Origin: Kibdelosporangium persicum
Lineage (GTDB): Bacteria > Actinomycetota > Actinomycetes > Mycobacteriales > Pseudonocardiaceae
Direction: 5' to 3'
DNA: 64,000 bases
Assembly: GCF_013280595.1 (NCBI RefSeq)
Contig: NZ_JAAATY010000035.1
Coordinates: 1-64,000 of the forward strand
Part shown: in pieces, positions 19,210 to 43,309 of the stretch
Numbering within the stretch: position 1 is the stretch's first letter
Layout of the letters: each line of letters begins with the position of its first letter
Translations under genes and position numbers: made by a program
Notes under the pieces: generated by a model
Database searches by the model: none
What the model saw: the letters and a program-made list of their open reading frames with translations, nothing else
What the model was told of the DNA's origin: nothing

Positions 19210-20004
19210 TCAGCGGCGGGTGAGTCGGTAGCCGGCGTGGTGTAGTTCGCCGTCGCGGAACTCTCCGTACGCCCAGAAGCCGAGGTCGTCGAGGTAGTCG
19301 ATGCGGGTGCCGTTGACCCAGTAGCGGCCGGTGTAGGCGCTCGGGCGGTCGCCGCGCGCTTCGTCGTAGCGGCCGTCTGGCAACAGGTTCTGTCGCAGGA
19401 AGTCGTTCTGGTCCGTGTCGACCATGCCGGGCTCGATGGTGGCCACGCGGACGTTCTGCGGCCCGAGCTCCACGCGCAACAGCCGGGTGAGATGGCTGAT
19501 GTAGGCCTTGGTTCCGGAGTAGACCGAGAACTTCTCCAGAATCCGGGTGGCCGCGATCGAGGACGTGGTGATCAGGTCCGCCGGTTTTCCCGCCGCCGCG
19601 GCGGCGGTCAGATGCGGTACGAAGGCACCGATGACGTTCATCACCCCGGTGATGTTCAGGTCGATCTGCCGTTGCCAGTCGTCCTGGCGCAGGTCGGTGA
19701 TGGGCGAGATGAGCTGGACGCCGGCGTTGTTGACCACAAGGTCCGCTGTGCCCAGCTGGTCTGCGACCTGCCGCGCGGCGGCGTGTACGGCCTCCCGGCC
19801 GGTGACGTCGACCGGAACGGCGACAGCGGTGCCGCCGCCGTTGATGGAAGCCACCAGGGCGTCGAGCTTTTCCTTGCGGCGAGCCAGAACGGCGACCTTC
19901 GCGCCGAGTCGCGCCAGGCGCGTGGCGGCGCCGATGCCGCTGGAGGCGCCGGAGATCACGGCCACGCGCCCGGTCAAGGGCGTGCCGGTGAGCAGAGCGG
20001 ACAT
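19210..20004 (-). CDS. Chimeric protein: SDR oxidoreductase body joined to an Atu4866-family tail
   Basis: A 264-residue in-frame chimera. Residues 1-200 are a classical short-chain dehydrogenase: the cofactor motif SGASSGIG, the NNAG motif (VVNNAGVQ), the catalytic Ser-Tyr-Lys (TTSSIAATR then YSGTKAY) and the post-catalytic IEPGMVDTD. At about residue 200 (NDFLRQNLLPDGRY) the sequence changes into the second part of an Atu4866 domain (AYTGRYWVNGTRIDYLDDLG) and ends there. The last 50 or so SDR residues, including the substrate loop, are absent. Helix 1 after GIG is also short by about two residues (AATRLARLGAKV). AGGAGGG lies 10 bases before the ATG. A deletion that joined an SDR gene to a following Atu4866 gene is the simplest explanation; activity is doubtful. 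Confidence 0.8.
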   Translation of the reverse strand: MSALLTGTPLTGRVAVISGASSGIGAATRLARLGAKVAVLARRKEKLDALVASINGGGTAVAVPVDVTGREAVHAAARQVADQLGTADLVVNNAGVQLISPITDLRQDDWQRQIDLNITGVMNVIGAFVPHLTAAAAAGKPADLITTSSIAATRILEKFSVYSGTKAYISHLTRLLRVELGPQNVRVATIEPGMVDTDQNDFLRQNLLPDGRYDEARGDRPSAYTGRYWVNGTRIDYLDDLGFWAYGEFRDGELHHAGYRLTRR

Positions 20005-23168: not shown

Positions 23169-26100
23169 TCAGTCCTCCGGTAGATCCATCAGGTCGTCGA
23201 GAGCGGGTTGGTTCGCCTCGGCCAGCGCCGCTTTGGCCGCTGCACGCAGGGTGGCGGCCAAAGGCTCGTCGTCGTTCGTGCAGTGAAGCAACTGCGCTGC
23301 GTCTGCGGTGGCGACGGCTGCGGGGTCGCGGAGCGCTGCTTGGTCAAGGCGCAGGTAGACCTCGCGTTCGACAGGGTTGTCCACGTGCCGGGCGATGGGG
23401 ACCAGTCCTTTGATGATCCCTAGCGCGAGTTGCCAGGGAAGGGCTTCGGCGAGGTCGTCGAGGTCAGCTTCCGGGTGCAGGTGGCGGGCGATGTCGACGA
23501 CTGCCCGGATGACGTCGGCGGTGCGTTGCGCCGCATACGCGATCGGGCCCGGGTCCCGAATACCCGCCTGCGGCCGCAGATGGAGGGTCAGGGCGGTCTC
23601 GATCTTGGAGATCGGTTGGCCCGTTGACCACATCTGACAGGCGAGGGCGCGGCGTACCCGGCCGACGCCGGAACCGTTCTGGCTGCGGGGGCCCAGCAGT
23701 GCGGCTGTCACCGCGGGTGCGCACCGCTGCCGGGGCAGTTGCCGGGCGAACTCGTCATATTCGCGGTGCCAGTTGGCGGACGGTTTGGCGAAGCGCACGT
23801 CGTCGACCTCGGTGACCAGTTGCGCCGCGCCAAGCAGGGTCATCCTGGTCAACTCGGTGTCCGCCACCGCACTGAGGGTCGCGGCCAACACGCGGGCCGA
23901 CGCGACACTCAGGCCACTGCGGACCACGATCTCGCCGAGCGAGGTGAGCCGGTGGCCATTGTCGGCGGTGGTCAGGAAACCCTCTTCGCGCAGCGAGTCG
24001 ACCACCGCCCGCACCGTGTCGGGTGGGAAGGGGGCGGCGGTTCGGGCGGCCTGGCTCTGGAAGGCGCCGAAGGTCCAGCTCAGAAAGTCTGTTGCCCCAG
24101 CAGCGTCGGCGCCTTCGGGTTCGTCGGCGAGGCTCCTGAGCACGGTGAGGACCAGACTGTCCCAGTCGAGATCGGCGACGAGCAGCGCGGAGCGTGCGGG
24201 TTCGGGTCCGGCGTTCACGTAGTCGCGCCAGATCCGCTGGGCGTCGACACCGCCGTTGGATACGACGATCGCCCGCCCCGGGACGTCCCGGCCCGTGTCG
24301 CGCCCGGCCCGGCCTGCCATGTTCTTGTACTCCGAGGAGGTGTAAGGCCTGCCCGATCGCCCGGGGTGTTCCAGCTCGCACACCACGACCGAGTCCGCCG
24401 AGAGGTTCACTCCCTGGGCGAGGGTCGTTGTGGCGACCACAACCCGGATTTCTCCCGCTTCGTTGCGAAACCCCTGCACGACCGCCTGCTGCTCGGACTC
24501 ACGGAGATCGGTGTTGTGGAATGCCACGCCGCCACCGAGGCAGTCGCGCAGCATCTCGCCCACCCGGGACACATCTCCCTTGGGCAGGGCGCCGAGCACA
24601 GACTTGGCCGCAGGCAAGCCCAAACGGTCAGCGAGCCGCCGGGCGAAGGCACGGGTACCTGCCCGGCTGGAGCGGAACACAAGGACCCGGTCTCCCTGCT
24701 CCACCAACTTGCGGACCAGCCGCTCCACAAGGTCGTCCCCGACGGTCACCCCGGAACGAGGGAGCAGCCGCTGTTCAGCCTCCGTCCCCTGCACATCCTT
24801 GCCTCCGTGGGTCCGGTACAGGTAGGTGCCGTCCGGGCTGAGGACGCCTTCCGAGAGCGGGATGGCGCGATCGGTGAACTCCACCAGGGTTGCGCCGAGC
24901 CAGGCGGCTAGTTTGTCAGGGTCGCCCAGCACTGCCGAGAGCCCGACGAGCTGCGGAGTGGGCAAGCCCCGGTGGACCGCACGTCGCAAACGGGTGAAGA
25001 GCAGTTCCAACCGGGGCCCGCGGTCCGGCAGCAGCAAGGACTGGATCTCGTCGACGATCAGGACCCCAGCGCGTTCCACCAAACCGGGAAGCCCGGACAG
25101 CAAACCGATGAAGGTCTCGTAGGTCACCACGGCGATCTGATACGAGCCGGTGATCAGGTCACTCACCTGGTCGCGCAGTCCGCCGGTTGCCCGTACCACC
25201 CGGATCCCGAGCGGGTCGTACGCCTTCTGGAATTTCTCGTACTGTTCATTGACCAAGGCGCGGCTCGGCAGCAGGAACACGGCCTTGCGGTTGTGTGCAG
25301 CCGCGTGCAGCGCGACAATCTCACCGACAAGAGTCTTTCCGCTCGCGGTCGGCGCGCTGACCAAGACGTCGCAGCCGTTCAGCAGCCCGCCGCGATTGAC
25401 GGCGGCGACCTGCACGTCGTTGAGCTTGCCGACTCGGTCCCGCCACAGCTCGGCCACCGGCGAGGGGACGCCGTGGGCGACAAGGGACATCAGATCCTTG
25501 TTGGCCGGAGGCGGCTGGAAGTGGGCGCCGATCTCCTGGTACTTCGGGCCTGGTGACAGCGGCGGGAAGCGGGTCAGGCTCATCGTCCCCCCGAAAGTGG
25601 GGTGCTGCTTGCGGCGCCTCGTCCCGGTCTCCTCGGCGGTGACCCGATCCAGTACGTGCTTCACCAACGACGGCAGGCACACCTTGCCCCGGTTGTCCAG
25701 GACGTCGTCGGCGCCCATCAACCCCTGGATGAGGTGGTGGGTCAGAATCCCGTGCTGGTAACGCGGTGACTCGAACGCCTCCTCGTCTGCCGAGGCTGCA
25801 CCGAGGAAGACCCGTCCCTGACCGCTGATCGAGCGCACAACCTCCCAGGCGTCCGTCTCGTCCGACCGGGCGGTGCTGCCGTCGTCCGGCTCGAAGAACG
25901 TCCGCGCCAGCATGCCGCCGGAGAAGCAGCAGTCGAGTACGACGACCAGCAGCCGTGCGCGGATCGCCCGAACCAGTGCGACCAACTTGGTCAGCGGCAG
26001 CGCCGTCTCAGCGAAACGCCCGGGTACAGCGTCGTGGGTCGCCAGTTCCCGCGACGGCGTCCCGTGGCCGGAGAAGGTGATGACGACGAAGTCGTCGTCA

Positions 26101-26309
26101 CCGCTGGTCTCGGCGATGCGGCCGAGTTCGGCGGTCACTCTGGCCGTGGTGGCCTCTTCGTTCTGGACGAGAACGCAGTCACCGCGCACGTTGTCGGAGA
26201 ACAGCGCGTGGAGCACTCGCGCGTCGCGTCCCGCGAAGTTCAGGCGCCGGAAGGCGGGGTCATGGTAGTTGTCGATTCCGATGAAGAGTCCATGGAAGGT
26301 GCCGCTCAC
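23169..26309 (-). CDS. Caspase-like peptidase fused to a Ski2/Hel308-type superfamily 2 helicase
   Basis: A 1046-residue fusion. The start is the GTG at 26309 because it overlaps the upstream gene's stop as GTGA; the frame further upstream is only overlap. Residues 1-240 form a caspase/metacaspase (C14) domain (GLFIGIDNYHDPAFRRLNFA) with the catalytic His82 in TFSGHGTP and Cys128 in LDCCFSGG. Residues 290-720 form a helicase: Walker A SAPTASGKT near 317-325, the DExH-type box as DEIQ, motif V TTTLAQGVNLSADSV and motif VI as NMAGRAGRD. The remaining C-terminal third is winged-helix/helical, as in Ski2-like enzymes. Both active sites look intact. A helicase that senses foreign nucleic acid and triggers a caspase is the likely logic, but that is inference. 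Confidence 0.88.
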   Translation of the reverse strand: MSGTFHGLFIGIDNYHDPAFRRLNFAGRDARVLHALFSDNVRGDCVLVQNEEATTARVTAELGRIAETSGDDDFVVITFSGHGTPSRELATHDAVPGRFAETALPLTKLVALVRAIRARLLVVVLDCCFSGGMLARTFFEPDDGSTARSDETDAWEVVRSISGQGRVFLGAASADEEAFESPRYQHGILTHHLIQGLMGADDVLDNRGKVCLPSLVKHVLDRVTAEETGTRRRKQHPTFGGTMSLTRFPPLSPGPKYQEIGAHFQPPPANKDLMSLVAHGVPSPVAELWRDRVGKLNDVQVAAVNRGGLLNGCDVLVSAPTASGKTLVGEIVALHAAAHNRKAVFLLPSRALVNEQYEKFQKAYDPLGIRVVRATGGLRDQVSDLITGSYQIAVVTYETFIGLLSGLPGLVERAGVLIVDEIQSLLLPDRGPRLELLFTRLRRAVHRGLPTPQLVGLSAVLGDPDKLAAWLGATLVEFTDRAIPLSEGVLSPDGTYLYRTHGGKDVQGTEAEQRLLPRSGVTVGDDLVERLVRKLVEQGDRVLVFRSSRAGTRAFARRLADRLGLPAAKSVLGALPKGDVSRVGEMLRDCLGGGVAFHNTDLRESEQQAVVQGFRNEAGEIRVVVATTTLAQGVNLSADSVVVCELEHPGRSGRPYTSSEYKNMAGRAGRDTGRDVPGRAIVVSNGGVDAQRIWRDYVNAGPEPARSALLVADLDWDSLVLTVLRSLADEPEGADAAGATDFLSWTFGAFQSQAARTAAPFPPDTVRAVVDSLREEGFLTTADNGHRLTSLGEIVVRSGLSVASARVLAATLSAVADTELTRMTLLGAAQLVTEVDDVRFAKPSANWHREYDEFARQLPRQRCAPAVTAALLGPRSQNGSGVGRVRRALACQMWSTGQPISKIETALTLHLRPQAGIRDPGPIAYAAQRTADVIRAVVDIARHLHPEADLDDLAEALPWQLALGIIKGLVPIARHVDNPVEREVYLRLDQAALRDPAAVATADAAQLLHCTNDDEPLAATLRAAAKAALAEANQPALDDLMDLPED

Positions 26310-27475
26310 CGCTGACCCCACCCCTGCCAGGGCTGGGTCGCCCGGATCGTCTTGAGCAGGTATTCGATCTCGGTCCTGGTAAGCGCCTCGACGATGTAGT
26401 GGTCCATGGTGGCCGGGTGCAGGAACATCGGGATGTCGTCGGTCGAACAACCCGGCAAGACGATGGGAAGGAGGTAGCTTCGCCATTCCGGGTGCTTCTG
26501 AAGCAGGTTTCTGATCACCCCGAGTTCACTGCGGATGCCCGGGTGACCGGTGGACTCGTAGGTTCCTTCGCCGACTGCCTTGCACGTCGGCGAGGCGATG
26601 ACGGCAACGAAGTCCGCTTCCCGGATCTCACGCAGTGCCCAGTGGTCCCACTCCGTGCGGGGTCCCTCTTGGTCTTTGTCGATTCTTGGGTCCAAGCCGC
26701 TTTCGCGCAGGAGGTCGGCGAAATCCCGGACCTTTTTCTTATGCGTCTCGTCCTCGTGCGCATAGCAGATGAAGACCCGGGGTGATGGTCGGGGAAGGCC
26801 GACTCCCGAACCGCCACGCTTTTCGGCCTCGACAAGAGGTGATCGGGTGGACTCGGTCAGCGAGATGCTGAACTCCGTCGACTTCGGCACTGGGTGGAAG
26901 TCGTCTCCGTCGGCGAGCCGCGGTTCGAAGCGCGCGGTCAGCCGGAATTTCTGCTCAGTTCGCCCTCCGGGCGTGAGCAGCACGATCCACGCCGAATAGG
27001 AGCCGGGACGGACCCCGGTTCTGCCCGGAGCGACGTGCAGCCACCGGATCGAGTCGCCAGAGGCGCCGTAAACGTGAACCGGGCCGTCGGTCGGCGGGAT
27101 GTGGACCAGAGCGGCGCTGTTGTCGACCGGGACGAACTCCAGGTTGCGGCTGAGCGCGTAGGAAGTGGCGGGTTGGGGTTCAGTGGCTCCGCGGGGCACC
27201 GCGGCGACGACCGTTGAGTCGCGGTCTGCCAACGGGAAGCCGATCTCGAACCAGCGCATGACCGGGGCACCGGGGTCGATGCGCAGGTCGTAGTTGATCT
27301 TTACAAGGTGTGCGGCCTTACCGGGAAACGCCGCGTGCACCCCGGCTACGGGGTGCACGTGCCAGCGACTGAGACGCAGGGCGCCGAAGACCACCTCCTC
27401 CGGCCCTGTGTCGATCCGCCGCCCACTGTTGTCCACAAGGGTCAATGGGACACCGATGCCGTCTTCCGGCCGCAT
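26306..27475 (-). CDS. SEFIR (TIR-like) domain protein coupled to the caspase-helicase
   Basis: A 389-residue protein. The start is the ATG at 27475, five bases after AAAGGAG. The C-terminal 158 residues (about 232-389) are a SEFIR domain: VFICYAHEDETHKKKVRDFA, LRESGLDPRIDKDQ and EADFVAVIASPTCK. SEFIR domains are TIR relatives used for homotypic signalling or as effectors. The N-terminal 200 residues look beta-rich (WHVHPVAGVHAAFPGKAAHL, VHVYGASGDSIRWLHV, GSYSAWIVLLTPGG) and match no family I know; they could be a ligand-sensing domain. Its TGA overlaps the next gene's GTG, so the two proteins are made together and probably interact. Confidence 0.8.
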   Translation of the reverse strand: MRPEDGIGVPLTLVDNSGRRIDTGPEEVVFGALRLSRWHVHPVAGVHAAFPGKAAHLVKINYDLRIDPGAPVMRWFEIGFPLADRDSTVVAAVPRGATEPQPATSYALSRNLEFVPVDNSAALVHIPPTDGPVHVYGASGDSIRWLHVAPGRTGVRPGSYSAWIVLLTPGGRTEQKFRLTARFEPRLADGDDFHPVPKSTEFSISLTESTRSPLVEAEKRGGSGVGLPRPSPRVFICYAHEDETHKKKVRDFADLLRESGLDPRIDKDQEGPRTEWDHWALREIREADFVAVIASPTCKAVGEGTYESTGHPGIRSELGVIRNLLQKHPEWRSYLLPIVLPGCSTDDIPMFLHPATMDHYIVEALTRTEIEYLLKTIRATQPWQGWGQR

Positions 27476-27745
27476 GCCCGCTCCTTTCTGATCGGCGAGA
27501 TGTGGGCGACAGATTAGACACATGAATCGCAGTGCTCGGGCATCGGGGGAGCGGTGTCATACATGTGTCACAGAATTGACGATATCGGCAAGGGCAAATG
27601 AATTTGCTCGACCGGTTACACCTGTGGTTTGCTGCGTGCCGCAGGGTCCCAGTTGCACCGGCTGTCGTTCTTTCGGTGGCCGGGGCACGTATTCGTCTCG
27701 GTCGGCATTGTTCACCGACAGGTCCCTGGGAAGGTTGCATTCGTG
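27476..27745. promoter_or_regulatory. Divergent promoter region between the SEFIR/caspase and pPIWI_RE operons
   Basis: A 270-bp gap, clearly more AT-rich than its neighbours, from which two defence operons diverge. A TTGACG at 27576-27581 with a weak -10-like TGAATT 17 bases later could serve the rightward operon. The imperfect dyad around GTGTCATACATGTGTCAC (27554-27571) could be an operator. No coding frame here is convincing. Confidence 0.4.
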
Positions 27746-28900
27746 ATGGAAACTCTGGACGAAACAGTTCCGCTGGACCGTTCTGCGGACGACCAACGGC
27801 GCGCTCAGGCCATTACTGCGTGTTGTCTCGCGGCGGCTGTGCTCGGCGACCCGGATTTGCCTGGGGACCGGCGTGCCCGCGCGCTGATGAGCTGTCTTGG
27901 AGTGCTCACCGCCGCGCACCCCATCGGCGAGGCTCCGCCCATGGCTCGCTTCCGCGCGGGACTGCGCGGGCCGTTGGGCAACCTGCTGCCCCGCGACGTG
28001 GACACCACTGGGATCGCAGGACTGGAACTGCTCGACAAACAGGGCCGCTTCACCGACGAGGCGGAGGATCTGTGCAGAGAGTTCCTGATGCCCTCCGCCG
28101 CGCTGGAAGAGCACTGGCCATGGGAACGGGTCGCTGCGGAGCAGGAGGAGCGACGGGTCTACGAAGTGCTGCGCAGGCTCCCGGAGGCGCAATATGCGCA
28201 TTTGCGCGCCCAGCTAGTCGATCGGCCCGTCGACGACCTCCGTGCCTTGCGGCGCATCTGGGACACCCTGTTGCCGCAGTTCTACGAACCGGTCGCAGGC
28301 TGGTCGTGGCAGCAGGTGCGTGGATGGTTCTTCCAATGCCCGGACTGCGGGTGGCCGATGCGCGTGCTCGGCAGCGGGCCGGTCGTGGACGTCCGGTGCG
28401 AAGCGCACGCTCGCCGCGGCGTGGCCTACACCTGCCGGGTCGACGCCCGTACGGACGGTGCTCCAGAACTGCGGCCCGTGGGCGAGCGCGCTGTGCCCGT
28501 GGCGGCGCAGCCCGCCACCAGGGAGTCGATGGCGGTGTCCCGCATCGTCTGGCGATATGTGACGTTGCCAGGTCTGTTGGAGTGCAGGCTGCGTGATCAT
28601 GCACGGAGACTTGGGGCGGAGGTGACGATGTGGCCACACCAGGACCGCTACGACCTCAAGATCGAGTTTGGCGCGCAGGTGTGGCGAGTGGACGCCAAGG
28701 CGTGGGCATCCCCGGTCGCGTTGGGTGAGGCATTGCGCAGCGCCCGTCCCGCTGCCCCGGATCTGATGATCGTCGTCCCGGACCACCAGCGTTCGAGTTT
28801 GGAATTGCTGCGGCACATGATCGGCGGCCGTGGGTACCGGGTCGAGACGGCCAAGGACCTCATGGCCGAGTTGACCAAGATCGCGGCGGTGATGGCGTGA
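27746..28900 (+). CDS. pPIWI_RE-associated nuclease (zinc ribbon plus REase-fold domain)
   Basis: First gene of a three-gene pPIWI_RE operon; 384 residues from the ATG at 27746 (GGAAGG 12 bases before). The N-terminal half is helical. A zinc-ribbon-like segment follows near 198-235 (CPDCGWPM, then VRCEAHARR and YTCRVD). The C-terminal 120 residues look like a restriction-endonuclease fold, with the probable active site in YDLKIEF and VWRVDAKAW (an Asp followed by Asp-x-Lys) near 302-320. In the known pPIWI_RE systems an REase of this kind accompanies the PIWI protein and the helicase. The stop overlaps the helicase start as GTGA. Confidence 0.75.
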   Translation: METLDETVPLDRSADDQRRAQAITACCLAAAVLGDPDLPGDRRARALMSCLGVLTAAHPIGEAPPMARFRAGLRGPLGNLLPRDVDTTGIAGLELLDKQGRFTDEAEDLCREFLMPSAALEEHWPWERVAAEQEERRVYEVLRRLPEAQYAHLRAQLVDRPVDDLRALRRIWDTLLPQFYEPVAGWSWQQVRGWFFQCPDCGWPMRVLGSGPVVDVRCEAHARRGVAYTCRVDARTDGAPELRPVGERAVPVAAQPATRESMAVSRIVWRYVTLPGLLECRLRDHARRLGAEVTMWPHQDRYDLKIEFGAQVWRVDAKAWASPVALGEALRSARPAAPDLMIVVPDHQRSSLELLRHMIGGRGYRVETAKDLMAELTKIAAVMA

Positions 28901-31900
28901 CTGTCCCGACCGCTCCCACCGGAATCGCGACCCAGATCGCCTGTGCCCTCGCCGAGGAGTTCTTCGGGTTCCCCGACCCCGACGGCCGCACAGCTGTGCC
29001 GCTGGACGCCGCGGCACTGGTCGCCGCGGGCAGGCTGGATCTGTGGCGGGGCTGGGCCAAGCAAACCGCGGCCACTAGGCGGCTGGTGGGCCGGTTCCTG
29101 CGGGTGCGGCCGAACGAGATCGGGGCGCATCGCCGGTTCACTGAGATGGCCCGTGCGTTGCGCGCGGACACCGACAGCCCGTACGGAGTTCCCGAAGACG
29201 TGCCTGACGACGAGGTCGTGGCGGTCGTGGCCCGGCACGGGCAGCGGCCGCTCGACCTCGTCAGGCGCCTGCTCGACGAAGCCGAGGTCAAGTATGTGCA
29301 GGGCAGGCGCCCACTACCCGTCGCAGGGCCGGGCAGGTGGAGCTTCGGGTGGCGTGGACAGTCCGTTGTGGACCTTTCACCCGCTGTGAAGGGTGGCGTC
29401 GTGGACCCGATTGTCCTCGACACCACCCCTCCCGTTGCGGAAGTGACCGTCAAGCCGGAGGAGCTACGGCGGCTGGCCGACGAGATCGCAACGCGCCGCG
29501 GTGAGAGACCATGGCAGGCCCGGGTCCTCCACGAGTTGTTCGCCGGACTGCGCACCGACAATGACGTCCCGGTGCACGAGCTCCTGCTGCGGCCAGGCGG
29601 AATCCGCCTGCTCAACGCTCCGACCGGGGTCGGCAAGTCCGTCCTCATCAGACTGCTCGCACTGCATCTGGCCCGATCTGGTGTCCCCGTCGCGATCGTG
29701 GTCGGCACCGTCCACGAAGCCATGGAGACCGCCGACAAGATCTCCAGCGACCTGCAGACTCTGGACTTGCCCCGTCGCTGCACCGCGCTGGTCTCACCCA
29801 GGCGCCTTGCGGAGAAAGCGGCACAGGCGGCCGACCGAGGGCAGTGGGCCAGGTTCGACACTTTGGCCTACGGCTGTGCTCTCTCGGCGTTGGTGGTCGA
29901 CGGGCCGCAACCCGTCGCCCCGGACGAGCCGTGCACTGGATTGCGGCCCATGGTTGAGCAGCCAGGTGTTGAGGAGAAGCGACAGCCCGCGCCTCGGCAC
30001 GCCTGCCCGTATCTGGGAGTGTGCGGCCGCCACCAGGGTCTGCGAGATGCGGCGGCCGCCGACATCATCGTCACCAACCACCACAACCTCGTCCACGGCA
30101 CGGTTCCGGTGCCCGTTCGGGTCGACGGGGTCGAGCTGAACCGGCTGCCGGTCCAGGAGTTTCTCCTGCGCCGGTGTGCGGTGCTGCTGGCCGACGAAGT
30201 CGACCTGCTGCAGAGCAACATGTTCGACGCGGGCGCCCGCCAGCTCAAGCTCGCGGCCAGCGGTACGGTGGCCGAGCTGCCCCTGGTCCGGTTGGACACC
30301 GAGCGGACCATGCTGCTTCCGGCCGAGGACCGCGCGGTCGTGCCGCCGCTGACGCGCACCCGGTTCCTGGCCGACCAGTTCCTCAACTACGTCCTGGAGG
30401 GCGACCTGTGGCTGGGGGACGCACGCCCGGCTGCTCATGGTCCGCGCAAATCGTCCTCCGGAAGCGCGGACTCGGGCTGGCACCTGCCTGGCTCCCGCGA
30501 CCGGATGCTGCTCAAGCACCTATTCGAACTCGACGACAGCACTGAGAACGCCCAGGACGTGGCGGTGCCGGCCGAGGTCTACCAGCAGTTCAACGCGCTG
30601 TTCCCGGACATCGGCGGGACCGGTGGCGCGGACCTGCCGGAGTGGCTTCGCGAGGTCGCCGACCTTCTGGCGTCGGCGGTCAGCAACGACAGCGGCCAAG
30701 ACCACATCCGGGAAGTCCGGCACCGTCTCCATGAGGTACTCGAACCGCACGTGGCAGAGGCGAAAGACCGTCGGGATGTGGTCAACGCGCTGCTGGTCCG
30801 TACATGGCTCGGCGCACTGCACCAGGCGTTGACCCGCCTCACCTTCGCGGTCGCCGCGCCGGGGACGGAGATGCCGGCCGCGCGTGTGCTCGCCGAGCAG
30901 TTGGGGACCGTGGCCCAGCATCAGGCGATCCCGTACGGCCCTCTGGGGTATCTGCTGTTCGGGTTCCGCGTCGACAGAGTCGAAGATCCCCGGCTTGGCG
31001 GGACCCTGTCCGTACAGGCCGTCGGAGGCGACCCGCACACCACGGTCGCCCAATTGGGTGGCACGGTCGCACTGGCCGCAGCTGGAGTGGAACGCGTGGT
31101 GCTGGGCCTGTCGGCCACCGCGTACTTCCCCGGCGCCGGGCGCGAGCACATCCGGGCGTGCGTCACCTATGCAATGACCGACGCCAAGCCAGGGACGTTC
31201 TCCACGCGGGCAGGCGAGGCACTGGATGAGCAGTACCAGACCATCCACATCGGCGGCCGGGCAGAAGCCGGGAAGGACGCGGCGATCCGCGCGCTCGGCG
31301 CGTCGCTGTGGGACCAGCACATCGATGCGCACCTGCGGACGCTGGCAGCGACCGAACCGGACCGCGAACTGTGCATGCTGGTCGGCAACTCCTATCGGCA
31401 CGCCGTCCTGCTTGCGGCCGGAATCGCGAGCAGGACAGCAGACCCGGGCTGGGTGGCGGTTGTTGTCCCCCGGCACGGCTCTCCGTCACCGGTCGTGCTG
31501 CCCGCCGAGGTCGTCACGGTGACGATCGACGAGCTGGAGTCGCTGCCACACAAGCACCCTGGGGTCAAGGTGTGCATCGCGCCGCTGAGCCTGGTGGCCC
31601 GAGGCCTCAACATCCTGGTGCCTGGCGACCAGCGCTCGGCACTGGCGTCGGTGTGGGTCTGCGTGCGCCCGCCCGCCCAGGTCACCGACTCCGCAGAGAT
31701 GTTCGCCAGCGTCAACGCGTACGCGCTGGGCAAGAACGAGCCGAGCGTTGACCCGGTGGCGGTGTGGGTCGAGCAGCGCAAGCGCGCGTTCTTCCGGCTC
31801 TTCCACATCCTCACCAGCGACCCGCGTTTCAGCAGGCTCAGCCGAGCGCTCAAGGCCGAGGCAGTCGCCGGGATGCTCGTCGAGATGATCCAGTTGGCGG

Positions 31901-32112
31901 GCCGGGCGCGGCGAGGTGGCACTCCGGTGCAGCTGTTCCTGGCGGACGGAGCGTTCCATGATCCGAAGCACGGCACCGACATCCCGGGCTTGCTCCGCTA
32001 TTACTACGCGAACCTCAGCCCTGTCGAACAACGCGAACTGCGCCGCATCTACGGCTCGACGCTCGTGTCCTGGTTGGACTTCGCGGGCATCGGCGACGAG
32101 GAGGACCGGTGA
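28897..32112 (+). CDS. DinG/XPD-like superfamily 2 helicase of the pPIWI_RE system
   Basis: A 1071-residue helicase. Walker A is NAPTGVGKSVL and the Walker B region LLADEVDLL. Four cysteines at 327, 346, 370 and 376 (CPYLGVC at the end) are placed like the iron-sulphur cluster of XPD/DinG helicases, and they precede the typical DIIVTNHHNL. The C-terminal RecA-like half contains VVLGLSATAYFP and the terminal motif IQLAGRARRGG. It is longer than DinG because of N-terminal and central additions. It overlaps both neighbours by GTGA (28897-28900 and 32109-32112), implying coupled synthesis. It would unwind or remodel the nucleic-acid target for the PIWI and nuclease subunits. Confidence 0.87.
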   Translation: MTVPTAPTGIATQIACALAEEFFGFPDPDGRTAVPLDAAALVAAGRLDLWRGWAKQTAATRRLVGRFLRVRPNEIGAHRRFTEMARALRADTDSPYGVPEDVPDDEVVAVVARHGQRPLDLVRRLLDEAEVKYVQGRRPLPVAGPGRWSFGWRGQSVVDLSPAVKGGVVDPIVLDTTPPVAEVTVKPEELRRLADEIATRRGERPWQARVLHELFAGLRTDNDVPVHELLLRPGGIRLLNAPTGVGKSVLIRLLALHLARSGVPVAIVVGTVHEAMETADKISSDLQTLDLPRRCTALVSPRRLAEKAAQAADRGQWARFDTLAYGCALSALVVDGPQPVAPDEPCTGLRPMVEQPGVEEKRQPAPRHACPYLGVCGRHQGLRDAAAADIIVTNHHNLVHGTVPVPVRVDGVELNRLPVQEFLLRRCAVLLADEVDLLQSNMFDAGARQLKLAASGTVAELPLVRLDTERTMLLPAEDRAVVPPLTRTRFLADQFLNYVLEGDLWLGDARPAAHGPRKSSSGSADSGWHLPGSRDRMLLKHLFELDDSTENAQDVAVPAEVYQQFNALFPDIGGTGGADLPEWLREVADLLASAVSNDSGQDHIREVRHRLHEVLEPHVAEAKDRRDVVNALLVRTWLGALHQALTRLTFAVAAPGTEMPAARVLAEQLGTVAQHQAIPYGPLGYLLFGFRVDRVEDPRLGGTLSVQAVGGDPHTTVAQLGGTVALAAAGVERVVLGLSATAYFPGAGREHIRACVTYAMTDAKPGTFSTRAGEALDEQYQTIHIGGRAEAGKDAAIRALGASLWDQHIDAHLRTLAATEPDRELCMLVGNSYRHAVLLAAGIASRTADPGWVAVVVPRHGSPSPVVLPAEVVTVTIDELESLPHKHPGVKVCIAPLSLVARGLNILVPGDQRSALASVWVCVRPPAQVTDSAEMFASVNAYALGKNEPSVDPVAVWVEQRKRAFFRLFHILTSDPRFSRLSRALKAEAVAGMLVEMIQLAGRARRGGTPVQLFLADGAFHDPKHGTDIPGLLRYYYANLSPVEQRELRRIYGSTLVSWLDFAGIGDEEDR

Positions 32113-34709
32113 CCGCCGGCAACAAGGAACTGCCCCTACTGGCCTTCCCGTTGACGGAAGTGCTGCACGGGTCAGCGCACATCCATCAACTCCCTGACCG
32201 CGTCGACGAAGTGTGGATGCGGCTACGCGGCCGTTACCGGGAAAGAGTGCGCTGGAACGTCAACCTCCCGTACTCGGGTCTGGCGACTGCACTGCGCGCC
32301 TACAGCGGCGCCTGCGTGAACCTGTTTCCTGCCAGCAAGCACGAGGCGCCGCGACGGCTGGTATCCAGCAAGCCCCTCGACCGGCGTGACGTCCGTGACG
32401 CCGTGATGCTATGGGAGCAGGCCGTGCTCGGTGTACCCGACGAGGAGATCACCTTCGGCTACGCGAGCGAGTTGGCGGATCTGGTCGCTGACAACCTGGT
32501 CGGCGAGCGAGTGTCGCTCGCCGACCAGGTACGCCATGTCGGTGATCAGCCCGACGCGCCGAACTGGGTCTACGACGCCGCCACTTGGCAGGTCGCCCGC
32601 AAGCTGGCGGGCAACGTGTGGCGGGTCGATGGTCGTGAGGTGTCGCTGCGGGCCGATACCGACGGCAACTTGCTGGTCTGGGACCCGGATGCGTTGTGGT
32701 CCGGCGTGTGGAAGGCGGATGGCGACCGCTGCTACGCCGCGCTTCGGATCCGCCTGCTGATGAAGACGCTGCCGGGCATGAGGACTCCGGTCGTGGTGCT
32801 CGACCCGTCGGTGGCGCGGTTGAGCCGGTGGCTCAACGGTGCCCGCACCGCCTGGCTGGCGCCGCGCCGCAACGAGGACCCGCTGCTCCGCCTTGCCGTG
32901 GAAGGCCGGAACCGCGTTGGCAGGATCGAGACGACGAGCCGTATCGCGCTGTCGGTTTCGCACAGGCTCCGCGGGGAGAACCTGCTCGAACCAGGTGACC
33001 TTGACCTCACCGGGCCGCCAGGCCGATTGCGAGCGCTGGTGCGCAAGTCCGTGCGATTTCCGGTCGGTCGCGGCGTGGGCATGTACACCGTGCGCGAACT
33101 GAGCCGCCACGCCGCGGAAGTGCTCGAAGTGCCGAACGTGACAGCCCGCGAGGTGAAAGGACACCGGTTCTCCGTCCAGGCCAAGCGGATCGTCGCGGCG
33201 GGCCGAGACGTCGATCTACTCGACGAGAGCGGATTGCCTGCGGTCATCAAGGCCTCTGGCGGCGAGCGGCTACGTGTCCTGGTCCTTTATGGCACTCAGC
33301 GCACCCGTGCCCGGGTGCAGCGGCTGCTCGCTCATCACTTCGCCCGGACCGACCTCGCAGAGGGCATCCAGGAGGACACTCTGGTCCAGGTCGGGGCGCA
33401 CGTGGAGGTCGTGTTCCACCACGCGGCGCGGTTACTGGCCCACGGTGAACACCGGCAGCGGCCGGGGGAGCTGGATCAGGTCCGGCATCTCGCCGCGCCG
33501 GACGGGACGCGGGTCCTGGTGCTGTGCGAGACCGAGTACGACGGCCGGACGCCGGAGGGGGATGCGAAGCCTGTGGTCAACCGGCTGCTCGCCGAGCGCG
33601 GCGCACTGGCCCAGTTCCTCGCGACAGCACCGGAGACCAAGGCAGTGGCGGACCCCGCGAAGGACCACGCGGGCAACAACGCGGTGGCCGACCTGCTGCG
33701 AGCTGCTGGTCTGGTCCACCCAAGAATGACCAGTGCGCTGTCTTCGGGCAGCCTCGGGATGACAGAGCCGGTCGCGTACGTCGGACTGCACGTCCGGGCT
33801 CAGCGTGGGGAGGCGTGGATCAAGGGTGAGCCGAAGCTGAGTTGGTCGTTGGTCGCCATGGTCCCGGACGGCGAGCATTGGCGAATCCTGGCCTACCAGT
33901 CCGCGCCGCATCCGAAGATCGGCAAGAGGACCGGGTGGCAGGACTACTTCACCGTGAACACCGCGTTCCGCGCGCTACCGTTGCCTGGCGGCAAGCGCCA
34001 GGACGAGAGCCTGCTAGTGGCGATTGACACTGCTCTCGGCCAGTTGCGCCCGCACGTGGCTACCGGGTCGGGGTACGTACTGATGGTCTCCGGTGACAGC
34101 TCACGGTCGTTGTGGCCGCTGCTGGCCAACAAGAACCTTGATCTCGAACCAGACTCCGCGGGCCGCGTCGGTGATCGCCGAGCCCTGCCTGGCTGGGACG
34201 CGGCTCTCGGACACCGCCCGCGGGCCGTGGTACGAGTGACCTCGGGAACACGCGACCTGCCACGTCCGGTCGAAGTGCGCAGCCCTGACACGGCGGCCGG
34301 GAACGGTTGGCGTGTCGGCAAGACGACGCGGTCGCTGTACCAGCTCGCCGATTCCGCGAACACGTGGATTTTGGCCAACATCCCACGCCCGTTCGCCGGC
34401 GGCGGGTGGCACAGCCGGGCAGGACTCGACATCGGGCGGTGGTCCGCGGACGCGGAAACAGGCAGGCACACGTGGTATGCCCACACCAGCACTGAGATCG
34501 TGGTCGTCGGCGCGAACTCGGACCCGCTGCGTTACGCCGTCGCGGCGGCGCGGCTGTGCGACCACGCGGTGTCCTGGGACGGGCGCACCAGCTACCCCGC
34601 ACCGGTTCACCTGGCAGCGCTGATGGACCGCAACCATCCCGAGTATCGACGAACCGTGGACTGGGACGACGAAACGGAGTATGAGGAAACCGATGAGACG
34701 ACGAGCTAG
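32109..34709 (+). CDS. pPIWI_RE protein (prokaryotic PIWI-family, defence)
   Basis: An 866-residue protein, third gene of the operon. I identify it from the gene trio and from its C-terminal RNase H-like half: EPVAYVGLHVRAQRGEAWIK near 553-572, GSGYVLMVSGDSSRSLWPLL near 654-672, then IPRPFAGGGWHSRAG and STEIVVVGANSDPL with an acidic residue in the first strand. The family name refers to a conserved Arg and Glu. At the first strand, where active PIWI enzymes have Asp, a His appears (GLHVRA), so this copy may bind but not cut, leaving cleavage to the REase subunit. That alignment is by eye only. The N-terminal half, including the guide-binding part, is not resolved. Confidence 0.78.
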   Translation: MTAGNKELPLLAFPLTEVLHGSAHIHQLPDRVDEVWMRLRGRYRERVRWNVNLPYSGLATALRAYSGACVNLFPASKHEAPRRLVSSKPLDRRDVRDAVMLWEQAVLGVPDEEITFGYASELADLVADNLVGERVSLADQVRHVGDQPDAPNWVYDAATWQVARKLAGNVWRVDGREVSLRADTDGNLLVWDPDALWSGVWKADGDRCYAALRIRLLMKTLPGMRTPVVVLDPSVARLSRWLNGARTAWLAPRRNEDPLLRLAVEGRNRVGRIETTSRIALSVSHRLRGENLLEPGDLDLTGPPGRLRALVRKSVRFPVGRGVGMYTVRELSRHAAEVLEVPNVTAREVKGHRFSVQAKRIVAAGRDVDLLDESGLPAVIKASGGERLRVLVLYGTQRTRARVQRLLAHHFARTDLAEGIQEDTLVQVGAHVEVVFHHAARLLAHGEHRQRPGELDQVRHLAAPDGTRVLVLCETEYDGRTPEGDAKPVVNRLLAERGALAQFLATAPETKAVADPAKDHAGNNAVADLLRAAGLVHPRMTSALSSGSLGMTEPVAYVGLHVRAQRGEAWIKGEPKLSWSLVAMVPDGEHWRILAYQSAPHPKIGKRTGWQDYFTVNTAFRALPLPGGKRQDESLLVAIDTALGQLRPHVATGSGYVLMVSGDSSRSLWPLLANKNLDLEPDSAGRVGDRRALPGWDAALGHRPRAVVRVTSGTRDLPRPVEVRSPDTAAGNGWRVGKTTRSLYQLADSANTWILANIPRPFAGGGWHSRAGLDIGRWSADAETGRHTWYAHTSTEIVVVGANSDPLRYAVAAARLCDHAVSWDGRTSYPAPVHLAALMDRNHPEYRRTVDWDDETEYEETDETTS

Positions 34710-34925: not shown

Positions 34926-35591
34926 ATGACGAATGAAGGTCCCCCGCTCACCCTCCCGGAAAGATCAGCTCTCCTCGCGTTGATGACCTTTGTCGGCGAG
35001 GCGTCGAACACGGAGATCAAGGACAGATACCGGTTCACAATCGACAAGGGCACTCGCGAGCGCCTGAAAGAACTCGACCTTATCACCGTCCATCAGGCAA
35101 GACAGCTGCGTAACGCCTATGTCCACACGTTGACCGAGGAGGGCTGGAGGCGCTGCCGGGAGGAACTGGATGCGGAGCCGTCGGGGCGCGTGGACAAGGG
35201 GTATCGCTTGCTTTACGGGGTGCTACGGCTGCTTGGTGAACATTTGACCAGGTGGGATCTGAAGCTCGCTGATCTCTTCAACGAGAAACCGCAGCCCGAT
35301 TCGGTGGAAACCCGCGGTTATGCAGATTCGGATATTGACGAGGAGATACGTTCCGCCTATCGTGTTTTGGCCGCGCAGCCACGTGCGTGGGTCAGTTTGA
35401 CACGGCTGCGCGAGAAGCTCGCCCACCTGTCGCGCGGAGAGCTGGACGCCGGCCTGGTGCGGCTCAACATGAATCCGCAGGCGCAACTGATTCCCGAGGA
35501 GAACCAGAAGGTCCTGACGGTTGCCGACCAGGCAGCCGCGATCCGGCTCGGCGGCGAGGACAAGCACGTGCTGTCGATCGACGTCACGTGA
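34926..35591 (+). CDS. Winged-helix protein, first gene of an ATPase-AIPR operon
   Basis: A 221-residue protein from the ATG at 34926 (GGAG 10 bases upstream); ATG at 34902 is an alternative without a ribosome site. The N-terminal 85 residues form a winged helix (ALLALMTFVGEASNTEIKDR, LKELDLITVHQARQLRNAYV, LTEEGWRRCREEL). The rest is helical with a second possible winged-helix-like part (VSLTRLREKLAHLSRGELDA). It is separated from the pPIWI_RE operon by 216 bases and precedes the ATPase gene by 7 bases. It may be a DNA-binding or sensor subunit of the system, or its regulator. I do not recognise a named family. Confidence 0.65.
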   Translation: MTNEGPPLTLPERSALLALMTFVGEASNTEIKDRYRFTIDKGTRERLKELDLITVHQARQLRNAYVHTLTEEGWRRCREELDAEPSGRVDKGYRLLYGVLRLLGEHLTRWDLKLADLFNEKPQPDSVETRGYADSDIDEEIRSAYRVLAAQPRAWVSLTRLREKLAHLSRGELDAGLVRLNMNPQAQLIPEENQKVLTVADQAAAIRLGGEDKHVLSIDVT

Positions 35592-35598
35592 GGCTGCC

Positions 35599-38500
35599 AT
35601 GGACGACCTCGAACGCCGCTTACTGGAGAGCCTGCGAATCAACTGGGCCCCGACACCCGAGGACGTGTGGGCACCGCCCGCTGCGCACGTCGACGGCCTT
35701 CATGACCGCACGCTGCGCACAGTCATGGACGCTTTCGCAGATGCCGAGGCCAGCGATGGTTCCAGCCCCCTCGGCGTCGCCGTCACGGGTCAGCACGGCT
35801 CGGGAAAGACCCACATGCTGAGCGTGATACGAGTCGAGGTACAGCGCCGCGGCGGTTACTTCTTCCTGGTGAGTCTGTTGCACGGCAAGGACTTCTGGCA
35901 GAACATCACCCACGCGCTGCGCACCGGGCTGTACCGTCCCGGCCCGGACGGCGAACGGCAGTTGGCCGTCGTGTTGCGTCGGCTCGCCGACTGTCTCGAC
36001 CTGCCCGACGAGATCCGCGAGCAGGTCACCGGCCAGCGGATGCCCACCCGGCAGGGTCTCTTTCAGCTTGCTGCCGCGCTGGATGATCACGACATGCTCT
36101 GGGGCCACGAGTGCCGGAACACCGTGAAAGCCATGGCACTGCTCGTGGCGCCGGACCCGATGGCTCGTGAGATCGGCGAGTCGTACCTCATGTCCGGTAG
36201 TGAGACCCAGCCCGGCGAGCGCGCCGAATGGGGTATCCAGCCGGACACCAGGCCCGCACAGCAGATGGTCGGCGAGATATCCAGGCTGCTGTCGCTGACC
36301 GGGCCAAGCCTGCTCGCTGTCGACCAGATCGACACGCTGATGGCGCAGTCGACCCAGGCCACGGACCTGGGTGTGGTGAGCCCTGTCAGCCAACCCGATG
36401 ACCACCTGCTGGAGGGGCTCGGCGTGGGGCTGATGGATCTGCGGCAGACCACCCACCGCACGGTCACCGTGGTGGCCTGCCAACCCCACGTTTGGCAACG
36501 GATAGGCAGCCACACCAACATCACGGTGAAGGAACGTTTCCGTCAGGAGTCCAGGCTGAACAACGTGCCATCCGTCGCCGTCGGGCAGGCGCTCGTCGAG
36601 ACACGGTTTCGCTCGCTGTTCGCCGAGGCCGATTTCGACCCGGAGTACCCGTCCTGGCCGGTCCGGCCGTCAGCTTTTGCCGCGGCCCCGCACTTCACGC
36701 CCCGTGAGTTGTTCAAACGGATCGACGATCACGTTCGGTCCTGCCTGGACACCGGTGTCTTCCGCGAGCTGACCAACCTGCTGGAGGAGTCTCCGCCGCC
36801 CGCCGAGCGGGTATGTGCCCCGGCGCCCGCGCTGAACACTGTGGCGGCAGCGTACGCCGACCTGCTGGCCAACGCCGATCCCACGGCAGCCGTTCAGCAG
36901 AGGACTGAGGACGAGCGGATGCCTGCGTTGCTGGCCGCGGGGCTGCGCTCGTACATGTACGAACAGGGCAAGTACCGCGACCGGTACTCGCTCGACCCGC
37001 CGCCGGGGGACAACCCATCGCTGCACGCACGGTTGCGGTACATGGTCGACGAGCAGACCGGCGACCAGATGCACTGGTCCTTCCGGGCCATTTCCTCGTC
37101 CAACCACCTGAACGCGCAGAACCGTATCGAGCGGTTGCAGATCAACGCCGGTCTTGACCCGGACGTACCCAAGCGCAGGGCCTACCTGCTGCGCACCGGC
37201 GGCTGGTCAATGGGAACGCCGAAAACCAAACGGATGCTGGCGAACTTCAAGTCCGCGGGCGGCGTGCTCATCGACCCGGTATCCGCCGAGGACCTCCGGG
37301 TCTTCGCTGCTTTGGAACGGATGTGGGAGAAGCCGGGCGCGGATCTGTGGGTCTGGTTGGAACAGCACAAGCCGGCCAGCCAGACCACCCTGTTCAGGCA
37401 GGTGTTCGGCGAGCCCGATCTCTCGACGCAACAGCAGCCCGAGCCGGTAGTGCCAGAGCCCTCGCAGCAGGCGGTCTGGCCGGACATGGATCCGGACTCG
37501 GTCGCTCCGCCAACCGACACGGGATCGACGATCCCGCTGGGAACCAGCGTCGACACCGGCCGGCCGCTGATGGTCGGCCTGGAGTCGCTCCGCAAGCACA
37601 CCGCGATCTTCGCCGGGTCCGGGTCTGGGAAGACCGTGCTTATCCGCAGGCTGGTTGAGGAGTGTGCACTACGGGGCGTGTCATCCATCGTGCTCGATCC
37701 CAACAACGACCTTGCCCGGCTGGGCGACGCCTGGCCGCAGGCTCCCGACGGGTGGCAGGACGAGGACGCGGCCAGGTCAGTGGAGTACCGGGACGGCACC
37801 GACGTCGTTATCTGGACGCCTCGCCGGGAGGCCGGCCGGCCGTTGACCTTCCAGCCCCTGCCGGACCTCTCGGCGGTCGTGGGTGATCCGGACGAATTCT
37901 CGCTGGCGCTGGACACAGCGGTCGCTGCCCTGGCGCCACGGGCACGGGCGGACGGATCCACAGCGAAAGCAGAACGAGCACGCGCGGTCCTCCGTGAGGC
38001 GTTGGCATGGTTCGCCCGCAAGGGAGGCACCCGACTACACGCGTTTCTCAACCTGCTCGCCGACCTGCCCGACGACATAACGACACTCAGCAAAGCCCAC
38101 GACATGGCTGCCGACATGGCTCAGACCCTGATGGCCGCCAGGATCAACGACCCGTTGTTCGGAGGTACAGGTGAGCCGCTGGACCCGGGTGTCCTGTTGA
38201 CTCCGCCACCCGGCAAGCACGCCCGCGTCTCGGTGATTAGCCTTATCGGCCTGCCGACCGACCAACAGCGGCAGAACTTCGTCAACCAGCTGCAGATGGC
38301 GCTGTTCGCGTGGATCAAACAGAACCCGGCCGGTGACCGGCCGTTGGGCGGCCTGCTCGTGATGGACGAGGCCCAGACCTTGGCGCCGTCCGGGATGATG
38401 ACCGCCAGCACCGCGAGTACGCTCGCCCTGGCGTCTCAGGCCCGCAAGTACGGCCTGGGCCTGGTCTTCGCCACCCAGGCCCCGAAGGGCATCCACAACC

Positions 38501-38754
38501 GGATCGTCGGCAACGCGGCCACGCAGTACTTCGGCTTCATCAACAGCCCGGTCCAGGTGGCCGCAGCCAGGGAGATGGCGGCGGCCAAGGGGAGTGCTGT
38601 GCTGGACATCTCCCGGCTCAACGCTGGCGAGTTCTACGTGGTCGCCGAAGGACGTCCCTTCCAGAAGGTCATCGTGCCGATGTGCCTGAGCCACCACCCG
38701 TCGAGTGCGTTGACCTCGGAGGAAGTCCTGTCCAGGGCACGTGCCACCGGCTGA
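35599..38754 (+). CDS. Large protein with two P-loop ATPases, the second HerA/FtsK-like
   Basis: A 1051-residue protein from the ATG at 35599 (GTGAGG just upstream). The N-terminal ATPase has Walker A GQHGSGKT at 64-71 and Walker B LLAVDQID near 239-246, in the style of AAA/ORC-type ATPases. A helical middle and a Pro/Gln-rich linker (about 615-650, QQQPEPVVPEPSQQ) follow. The C-terminal ATPase is HerA/VirB4-like: FAGSGSGKT near 670-678, Walker B LLVMDEAQTL near 917-926, and the downstream FATQAPKGIHNRIVGNA that marks these DNA translocases. HerA-type pumps partner with nucleases in several defence systems; here the following gene encodes an AIPR protein. Two ATPases in one chain is unusual among those I know. 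Confidence 0.82.
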   Translation: MDDLERRLLESLRINWAPTPEDVWAPPAAHVDGLHDRTLRTVMDAFADAEASDGSSPLGVAVTGQHGSGKTHMLSVIRVEVQRRGGYFFLVSLLHGKDFWQNITHALRTGLYRPGPDGERQLAVVLRRLADCLDLPDEIREQVTGQRMPTRQGLFQLAAALDDHDMLWGHECRNTVKAMALLVAPDPMAREIGESYLMSGSETQPGERAEWGIQPDTRPAQQMVGEISRLLSLTGPSLLAVDQIDTLMAQSTQATDLGVVSPVSQPDDHLLEGLGVGLMDLRQTTHRTVTVVACQPHVWQRIGSHTNITVKERFRQESRLNNVPSVAVGQALVETRFRSLFAEADFDPEYPSWPVRPSAFAAAPHFTPRELFKRIDDHVRSCLDTGVFRELTNLLEESPPPAERVCAPAPALNTVAAAYADLLANADPTAAVQQRTEDERMPALLAAGLRSYMYEQGKYRDRYSLDPPPGDNPSLHARLRYMVDEQTGDQMHWSFRAISSSNHLNAQNRIERLQINAGLDPDVPKRRAYLLRTGGWSMGTPKTKRMLANFKSAGGVLIDPVSAEDLRVFAALERMWEKPGADLWVWLEQHKPASQTTLFRQVFGEPDLSTQQQPEPVVPEPSQQAVWPDMDPDSVAPPTDTGSTIPLGTSVDTGRPLMVGLESLRKHTAIFAGSGSGKTVLIRRLVEECALRGVSSIVLDPNNDLARLGDAWPQAPDGWQDEDAARSVEYRDGTDVVIWTPRREAGRPLTFQPLPDLSAVVGDPDEFSLALDTAVAALAPRARADGSTAKAERARAVLREALAWFARKGGTRLHAFLNLLADLPDDITTLSKAHDMAADMAQTLMAARINDPLFGGTGEPLDPGVLLTPPPGKHARVSVISLIGLPTDQQRQNFVNQLQMALFAWIKQNPAGDRPLGGLLVMDEAQTLAPSGMMTASTASTLALASQARKYGLGLVFATQAPKGIHNRIVGNAATQYFGFINSPVQVAAAREMAAAKGSAVLDISRLNAGEFYVVAEGRPFQKVIVPMCLSHHPSSALTSEEVLSRARATG

Positions 38755-38764
38755 AGGAGTCACC

Positions 38765-40483: not shown

Positions 40484-40499
40484 TTGAGGACCTCCCGCC
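40464..40499 (+). terminator. Terminator hairpin at the end of the ATPase-AIPR operon
   Basis: GGCGGGAGGTC (40464-40474) pairs perfectly with GACCTCCCGCC (40489-40499) around a 14-base loop that contains the AIPR stop codon. There is no U run, as is common in actinomycetes. It is placed between the convergent AIPR and ABC-permease genes and could act for the AIPR operon. Confidence 0.7.
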
Positions 40500-40691
40500 A
40501 CTTGCAGAGATGATTTCCCCGTCCGGGCGCCGGGACGAACGGGGAAGCGCGGACCTCGTGCCCATTCTGCTGAGATCGCCTCGACCCTGGTCGCAGAGGA
40601 ACAAGCCAGACCCATCTCGGAACTATTGCGCCGACAGCCACCGCTTACACGGAGGCGACACCGAGAACGCCACCCAACGGTCGTAGACGCC

Positions 40692-43195: not shown

Positions 43196-43309
43196 GACGG
43201 GTACACTACACATAGTTCATGAATTTTGTGAACTTCAAGAACGATGTGAGCGGCGGGCCCGCGCGAGCGATCGCTAGGCTCTCTGCCCGAGATGGAGGGA
43301 GAACCAGGC

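Follow-up and report, generated by a model that had tools for sequence, protein, structure and literature searches.

What could a SEFIR protein, a caspase and a helicase do together in a bacterium? The question is raised by two overlapping genes at positions 23169-27475 (minus strand) of a Kibdelosporangium persicum contig, of which we analysed the first 64,000 nucleotides (hereafter the window). One encodes a SEFIR protein with an additional N-terminal domain (N-domain), the other fuses a caspase to a Hel308-like helicase of the DNA-repair type, and divergent from both stand the genes of pPIWI-RE, an Argonaute-like defence system. Judged from its sequence, the pair has the appearance of a switch by which infected cells destroy themselves, and we tentatively propose that it is an accessory, probably suicidal, module of pPIWI-RE defence in which the helicase would act first. 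An earlier note on this DNA had instead drawn the pair as a module of its own, and its claims are taken up where our results bear on them.

The caspase-helicase fusion and its SEFIR partner

The N-terminal part of the fusion carries a His/Cys dyad in a caspase-type domain and matches the NCBIfam model NF047832 (caspase, EACC1-associated) with an E-value of 7e-26, although its 91 bits stay below the model's cut-off of 140. Both dyad residues, His82 and Cys128, are present in all 38 aligned homologues, which were chosen as full-length matches, and this counts in favour of our proposal. The same alignment keeps Walker Lys325, Asp420, Glu421, Arg667 and Arg670 in 38 of 38 sequences.

In the remainder of the protein Pfam recognises DEAD and Helicase_C. 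The Hel308-type model PRK02362 is matched with E 1.9e-71 (241 bits, cut-off 887), and the NCBIfam Hel308 equivalog model with 196 bits against a cut-off of 1200; by sequence the helicase is Hel308-like and, by the equivalog model, not an orthologue. The fusion's profile covers the Hel308 structure 2zj2 (positions 292-1005 of 1015, E 9e-103). The AlphaFold2 model of the fusion has a mean predicted local distance difference test score (pLDDT) of 86.1, and Foldseek aligned it to nine Hel308/Hjm chains among the 50 matches listed with TM-scores by target of 0.81-0.88. Profile and fold agree that the Hel308 architecture is present as a whole, from the core through the C-terminal domains.

Only SEFIR and TIR_2 are recognised by Pfam in the 389-residue partner (PF08357, 42.9 bits, curated cut-off 23). 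Its SEFIR family profile hits 5y8f, a SEFIR structure from B. cereus, with E 1.3e-7, and the protein model (mean pLDDT 78.8) matches the ACT1 SEFIR chain 9ot1_E with a TM-score by target of 0.62. Glu317 is invariant in 11 of 11 aligned SEFIR proteins and aligns with a Glu of 5y8f; we take its position to be that of the catalytic Glu of TIR NADases. The N-terminal 212 or so residues are predicted by AlphaFold2 to be nearly all beta. They gave no Pfam match (window protein at E<=0.05, four relatives with the same domain at E<=1), and the N-domain profile, A3, found no PDB sequence at E<=1. A linker predicted with low confidence (residues 219-229) joins the N-domain to SEFIR and agrees with our proposal. 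PADLOC reported no ThsB match for this protein at E<=0.01, and its best bSEFIR stretch reaches no further than from position 38 to 104 of the 412 in that profile, so that the full-length bSEFIR architecture is lacking.

The earlier note was right about the intact dyad and about a SEFIR protein with an unrecognised beta-rich N-terminus. Its complete Ski2-type helicase is complete and of the right superfamily, but the closest family is Hel308/PolQ.

Linkage to pPIWI-RE genes

The pPIWI-RE triad (27743-34709) runs divergently from the pair, about 267 bp away, with the restriction endonuclease (REase), DinG and pPIWI-RE genes all present; with the starts listed in Table 1, the DinG and pPIWI genes each overlap the preceding gene by four bases. 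The blocks conserved in the intergenic region would fit shared regulation of the divergent genes. While the earlier note described the pair itself correctly, it did not mention these genes, which start about 270 bp away. The defence neighbourhood that it expected is there, and includes both pPIWI-RE and AbiU/AIPR genes.

At E<=1e-30 caspase-helicases were matched in 10 of 397 genomes of the order, the window's own included, and 5 of 394 genomes in the class sample had a match (these five include the window's genome and G021, both also in the order sample, and a partial match in G624). Within the genus, 7 other genomes were searched and no full-length relative was found. Genome contigs were also scanned for relatives; of 163, 80 loci were kept, the last entries of the list being similar in the caspase region only. 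Full-length relatives occur in Actinomycetota, Pseudomonadota, Planctomycetota, Chloroflexota, Bacteroidota, Acidobacteriota and candidate phyla.

Our tree has 54 rows, that is 53 distinct family members and the distant outlier L125. Near-identical or duplicate loci (L081-L086, L093, L101, L112) and caspase-helicase scores of 900 or less were omitted. It was built by a quick method, with support from the approximate likelihood ratio test SH-aLRT and without bootstrap; it has long branches at L072, L100 and L104 and four incomplete members (L051, no caspase in frame; L078, contig end; L098, short; L111, two frames). According to profile searches of the flanks, 13 of the 53 members adjoin pPIWI-RE genes; at L104 the REase and DinG genes were found by flank profiles and the PIWI part by PF13032. 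Together with L072, which is paired with SEFIR and has no pPIWI, these 13 form one actinomycete clade of 14 with SH-aLRT 100. Since 13 of the 14 stand beside pPIWI-RE genes, the pair is hardly the free-standing two-gene module of the earlier note.

In six of the 14 (the window, L045, L060, L061, L062, L072) the SEFIR gene lies directly upstream of the caspase-helicase gene, and all six keep the four-base NTGA overlap, in line with the GTGA coupling that had been noted for the window. With five more loci in which both genes share a cluster, the two do co-occur; homologues never found together had been named beforehand as grounds for refuting the earlier claim, which thus passes this check. Since some of the contigs are short, all these counts of neighbours are minimum values. 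A PprPDDEXK-type gene stands between REase and caspase-helicase in 7 clade loci (by PADLOC at L063, by similarity at the rest); the group to which the window belongs yielded none.

How strong is the linkage? PF13032 occurs in 27 of the 397 order genomes, at 34 places. Of the 10 caspase-helicase loci, seven lie no more than 10 kb from such a match (G000, G313, G222, G317, G145, G230, G400) and three do not (G021, G008, G362); if a genome of 9 Mb has a single pPIWI-RE gene, the probability of its lying within 15 kb on either side by chance would be about 0.003. The 34 places divide into 7 beside a caspase-helicase, 21 in 20 other regions that we examined and 6 remaining. None of the 20 regions contains a caspase-helicase (L191 and L192 have weaker, helicase-only matches), so most pPIWI-RE systems do without one. 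The genomes of the 6 remaining places yielded no caspase-helicase at E<=1e-30 except that of G400, on another contig. Within the linked loci, distances of the caspase-helicase co-vary with those of pPIWI (r=0.79, 12 loci), which again speaks for our proposal, and with those of DinG (r=0.83) and REase (r=0.86; 13 loci). SEFIR distances co-vary with those of the caspase-helicase (r=0.97) and of pPIWI (r=0.92; 9 loci). All of these distance-matrix correlations have p=0.0002 by permutation.

The N-domain beside other proteases

Profile A3 finds nine full-length N-domains in the 397 order genomes, besides a 120-residue fragment that we left out of the count. All nine lie near a protease that is either a caspase-helicase (5) or a CHAT protein (4), and this too counts in favour of our proposal. 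CHAT belongs to the caspase clan. The five are in caspase-helicase clusters, in G317 about 10 kb from the caspase-helicase. At L219 and L220, N-domain-SEFIR proteins are encoded divergently from a CHAT gene, whereas at L221 and L222 the N-domain has a different C-terminal part and adjoins TPR-CHAT genes on the same strand. Pfam confirmed CHAT at L220 and L221; at L219 and L222 it was identified by a custom profile, L222 being among the sequences from which that profile was built. The C-terminal part at L221 and L222, which Pfam did not name at E<=1, may be a class III nucleotide cyclase, in our own reading of its motifs. In the window's genome there are 9 CHAT matches in 10.35 Mb, two of these being pieces of one; if CHAT density is similar in the other genomes, four chance CHAT neighbours are most unlikely. 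The shared N-domain could serve as a handle for finding further protease-signal pairs.

The surroundings of the pair and its relatives

Table 1. Features of the pair and of the adjoining pPIWI-RE genes in the window
Feature	Positions	Strand	Basis and remarks
N-domain-SEFIR protein, 389 residues	26306..27475	-	Pfam, AlphaFold2; ATG at 27475 just after ribosome-binding site AAAGGAG; stop at 26306
Unrecognised beta-rich N-terminal domain, about 212 residues	26838..27475	-	Common to CHAT-linked proteins
SEFIR domain	26414..26779	-	Pfam PF08357 stretch; Glu317 of the 389-residue protein kept in 11/11
GTGA overlap	26306..26309	-	SEFIR stop and caspase-helicase start
Caspase-Hel308-like helicase fusion, 1046 residues	23169..26309	-	Profiles, alignment, predicted fold; GTG start 26309, stop 23169
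Caspase domain, His82/Cys128	25635..26288	-	NF047832 stretch, under the model's cut-off
Hel308-type helicase	23793..25469	-	PRK02362 stretch; Hel308 profile and fold match extend further toward the C-terminus
Divergent intergenic region, about 267 bp	27476..27742	.	Blocks conserved in five loci
pPIWI-RE-associated REase (PprRE)	27743..28900	+	PADLOC, E 2.5e-20; start GTG 27743 or ATG 27746 inferred
PprDinG helicase	28897..32112	+	PADLOC, E 1.5e-109
pPIWI-RE protein (X, MID, RNaseH/PIWI domains)	32109..34709	+	Pfam; PADLOC (PprPIWI), E 3.2e-81

Beyond the triad, a HerA-like/mad8-like ATPase (35521-38754) is followed by AbiU/AIPR (38741-40483), and the defence-type stretch 35521-49268 also holds a 1741-residue protein matching PDC-S37/Hhe/Mko profiles. 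A short-chain dehydrogenase fused to an Atu4866 domain is encoded at 19210-20004. Another contig of the window's genome (C45, locus L186) has two further pPIWI-RE systems, of which one resembles the window's closely and the other only distantly; a CHAT match lies between the two PF13032 matches, and they are apparently decayed, because their DinG and pPIWI matches are split over several frames. A regulator-like HTH-NB-ARC-TPR gene lies near the caspase-helicase in 8 clade loci (L061, L063-L066, L047, L060, L072; by Pfam for L064 and L066, by similarity for the others) and was not found in the window between 13000 and 44000.

The genes next to caspase-helicases differ from locus to locus outside the pPIWI clade. 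They include an Mrr-type nuclease in 8 loci, among them the partial L118 (Pfam at L067 and L073, similarity at the rest), a Tle1-like phospholipase downstream in L079, L110 and L087, and a 200-residue protein in L096, L106, L233 and L234 that matches a PDC-S54 profile at L233, the sole locus tested. L051 adjoins an Mrr-type gene. In L074, L075 and L078 (Planctomycetota, Myxococcota) a protein of about 400 residues is encoded directly upstream, without a Pfam match in L074 and L075, the two tested. Near-identical caspase-helicases occur across alphaproteobacterial genera, namely L080 and L095, and L081-L086, L093 and L101. The end branches of L080 and L095 are 0 and 0.003, most of the others share the same match values, and these copies are probably due to recent transfer. 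A Thoeris partner at L098 was considered and rejected: the caspase-helicase is cut short there and continues as a ThsB_TIR remnant, followed by another gene, which looks SIR2-type, and the locus is apparently the product of recombination at a defence hotspot.

Caspase-helicases are carried by plasmids as well. All 12 plasmid records that match at least 80% of the protein are annotated solely as helicase, because of which the caspase half is easily overlooked; in a thirteenth, archaeal record the helicase part alone was matched. No N-domain-SEFIR was found on plasmids at E<=1e-10, one record having the SEFIR part only. A Fibrella plasmid (L237), one of six plasmid regions examined, encodes a class II Argonaute with a helical REase 1.3 to 5 kb downstream.

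How the pair might act

We suggest that the Hel308 part would load on abnormal single-stranded or forked DNA arising from phage replication or from the pPIWI-RE nucleases, and that ATP-driven movement or clustering might then release the caspase. The caspase could cut proteins of the cell, or its target could be the partner protein, where the N-domain would serve for docking or restraint. The SEFIR enzyme, which probably consumes NAD+ or makes a signal, would stop the infected cell jointly with the protease. More speculatively, the pPIWI-RE arm could supply cut DNA to the helicase, since the Pseudomonas stutzeri PIWI-RE is an RNA-guided DNA nuclease (PMC10991935). The helicase is placed first because the fusion occurs in many lineages without N-domain-SEFIR, where the helicase must be able to control the caspase alone. 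By analogy, such an order would have a precedent in HamMAB, in which a helicase complex, once triggered by DNA, sets a fused protease to work and a pro-nuclease is thereby activated (PMC12799240). The abortive infection by signal protein and suicide protease of the earlier note was an inference and is not supported as stated.

Several observations weigh against our proposal. N-domain-SEFIR was not found in 3 of the 14 clade members (L048/L141, L100/L142, L104/L143) nor in the available flanks of the 39 family members outside the clade, which also tells against a two-gene module, and SEFIR therefore cannot be the only output. In 5 of the 14 (L063-L066, and L047 with L140) the SEFIR gene lies beyond or next to pPIWI and away from the caspase-helicase. 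At L051 (G362), which is among the 10 order loci, the frame has a helicase without recognisable caspase. We could not name a conserved cleavage site in the linker between N-domain and SEFIR, and the distance co-variation may come from common vertical descent alone. Finally, the analogy with Hachiman is functional and not familial, because the fusion's profile covers HamB only at 301-683, the helicase core.

The order of events could be reversed, as in type IV Thoeris, where a caspase-like protease is activated by N7-cADPR, which a TIR protein produces (PMC12847820): the N-domain would sense infection, SEFIR would make an NAD+-derived signal that switches the caspase on, and the helicase would be a second input or a brake. 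The SEFIR gene is indeed the first of the pair, and the N-domain is also joined to the putative cyclase-like, signal-making domain beside TPR-CHAT genes at L221 and L222. Moreover, two TIR genes and a caspase gene adjoin the caspase-helicase at four alphaproteobacterial loci (L088, L106, L233, L234); however, these loci come with a caspase of their own and could represent separate systems. We consider this order unlikely, given that 39 of the 53 members fall outside the SEFIR clade and show no N-domain-SEFIR in their available flanks.

It is improbable, in our estimate, that SEFIR is instead the effector of the pPIWI-RE protein in a SPARTA-like manner and the caspase-helicase a separate backup. 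Systems of pAgo with TIR are a known theme, and the five loci in which SEFIR adjoins the pPIWI gene would suit such an arrangement. Nevertheless, SEFIR overlaps the caspase-helicase in six loci, and one of these, L072, lies on a contig without pPIWI-RE, the one pPIWI-RE match of its genome (G021) being on another. N-domain-SEFIR also stands beside CHAT at L219 and L220 in genomes (G139, G125) without a PF13032 match.

Just as improbable is a stack of independent defence genes in an island, with no functional link. The AbiU/AIPR, the HerA-like ATPase and the large PDC-S37/Hhe-matching protein of the window could be read in this way, as could the plasmid caspase-helicases, in several cases near other defence genes. 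Yet the genes are linked again in several families of actinomycetes, in the same divergent geometry and with the four-base overlap kept, and we also count against stacking that none of the 20 other pPIWI-RE regions has a caspase-helicase.

That the caspase frees the N-domain to form pores, as with gasdermins, is very improbable: leukocidin-type pore formers are the top Foldseek matches to the SEFIR-protein model (best E 3.4e-8), but TM-scores by target of 0.18-0.44 and an rmsd of about 9.5-29 A among the 50 matches listed are typical of unrelated beta sandwiches.

It is tempting to extend the helicase-first proposal. Caspase-Hel308 proteins might be widespread, undescribed DNA-sensing initiator caspases, which in actinomycetes would form a three-arm circuit with PIWI-RE and N-domain-SEFIR, a counterpart of the animal nucleic-acid sensor, caspase and SEFIR adaptor; we regard this wider view as rather doubtful. 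If the helicase-first proposal is right, one bacterial polypeptide would couple the surveillance of DNA to a caspase, and the pPIWI-RE system would gain a candidate death arm.

Comparison with known systems

Type IV Thoeris resembles the pair in that a TIR-superfamily protein is encoded with a caspase-like protease (PMC12847820, PMC12799240). Here, however, the best Pfam match is SEFIR, an extra N-terminal domain is present and the caspase is fused to a helicase. The EACC1-caspase systems (Kaur et al. 2020, PMC7159879) likewise consist of two genes, with the caspase N-terminal in the second and a variable C-terminal partner. They differ in their first gene, which encodes EACC1 with a single transmembrane helix, whereas the 5' gene of the window is N-domain-SEFIR, in which Pfam names SEFIR and TIR_2 only; a Hel308-type partner is absent from the parts of PMC7159879 consulted. 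With bSEFIR of PADLOC the SEFIR domain is shared, but the match spans 67 residues only and leaves the remainder of the protein unmatched.

HamMAB shares a DNA-sensing helicase tied to a protease, and canu, a system marked by the MBL-fold pro-nuclease CanC, a caspase acting on a partner effector (both PMC12799240). In the window the caspase is fused to a Hel308-type helicase, not HamB, and its partner is SEFIR. Despite many PADLOC HamB matches we rejected membership in Hachiman, as the match to HamB ends at the helicase core while Hel308 is matched almost to its end; HamA is not among the matches listed for 13 window proteins (for the fusion, 25 of 43 families).

In the parts of the literature searched we found no published description of a caspase-helicase fusion or of a SEFIR-caspase pair; the fusion is not described in those of PMC7159879, PMC8195603, PMC3702460, PMC12799240, PMC12847820, PMC13142454, PMC7641849 and PMC10991935. 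The earlier statement that no named system fits therefore holds for the pair, but not for its cluster. The REase/DinG/pPIWI-RE triad is shared with pPIWI-RE (Burroughs et al. 2013, PMC3702460; Ppr genes of PADLOC), which has been proposed to be a restriction system. Caspase and Hel308 are absent from the main text of PMC3702460, and the caspase-helicase and SEFIR are additions of one clade. Taken as a whole, the cluster is pPIWI-RE, a named system, in an extended form.

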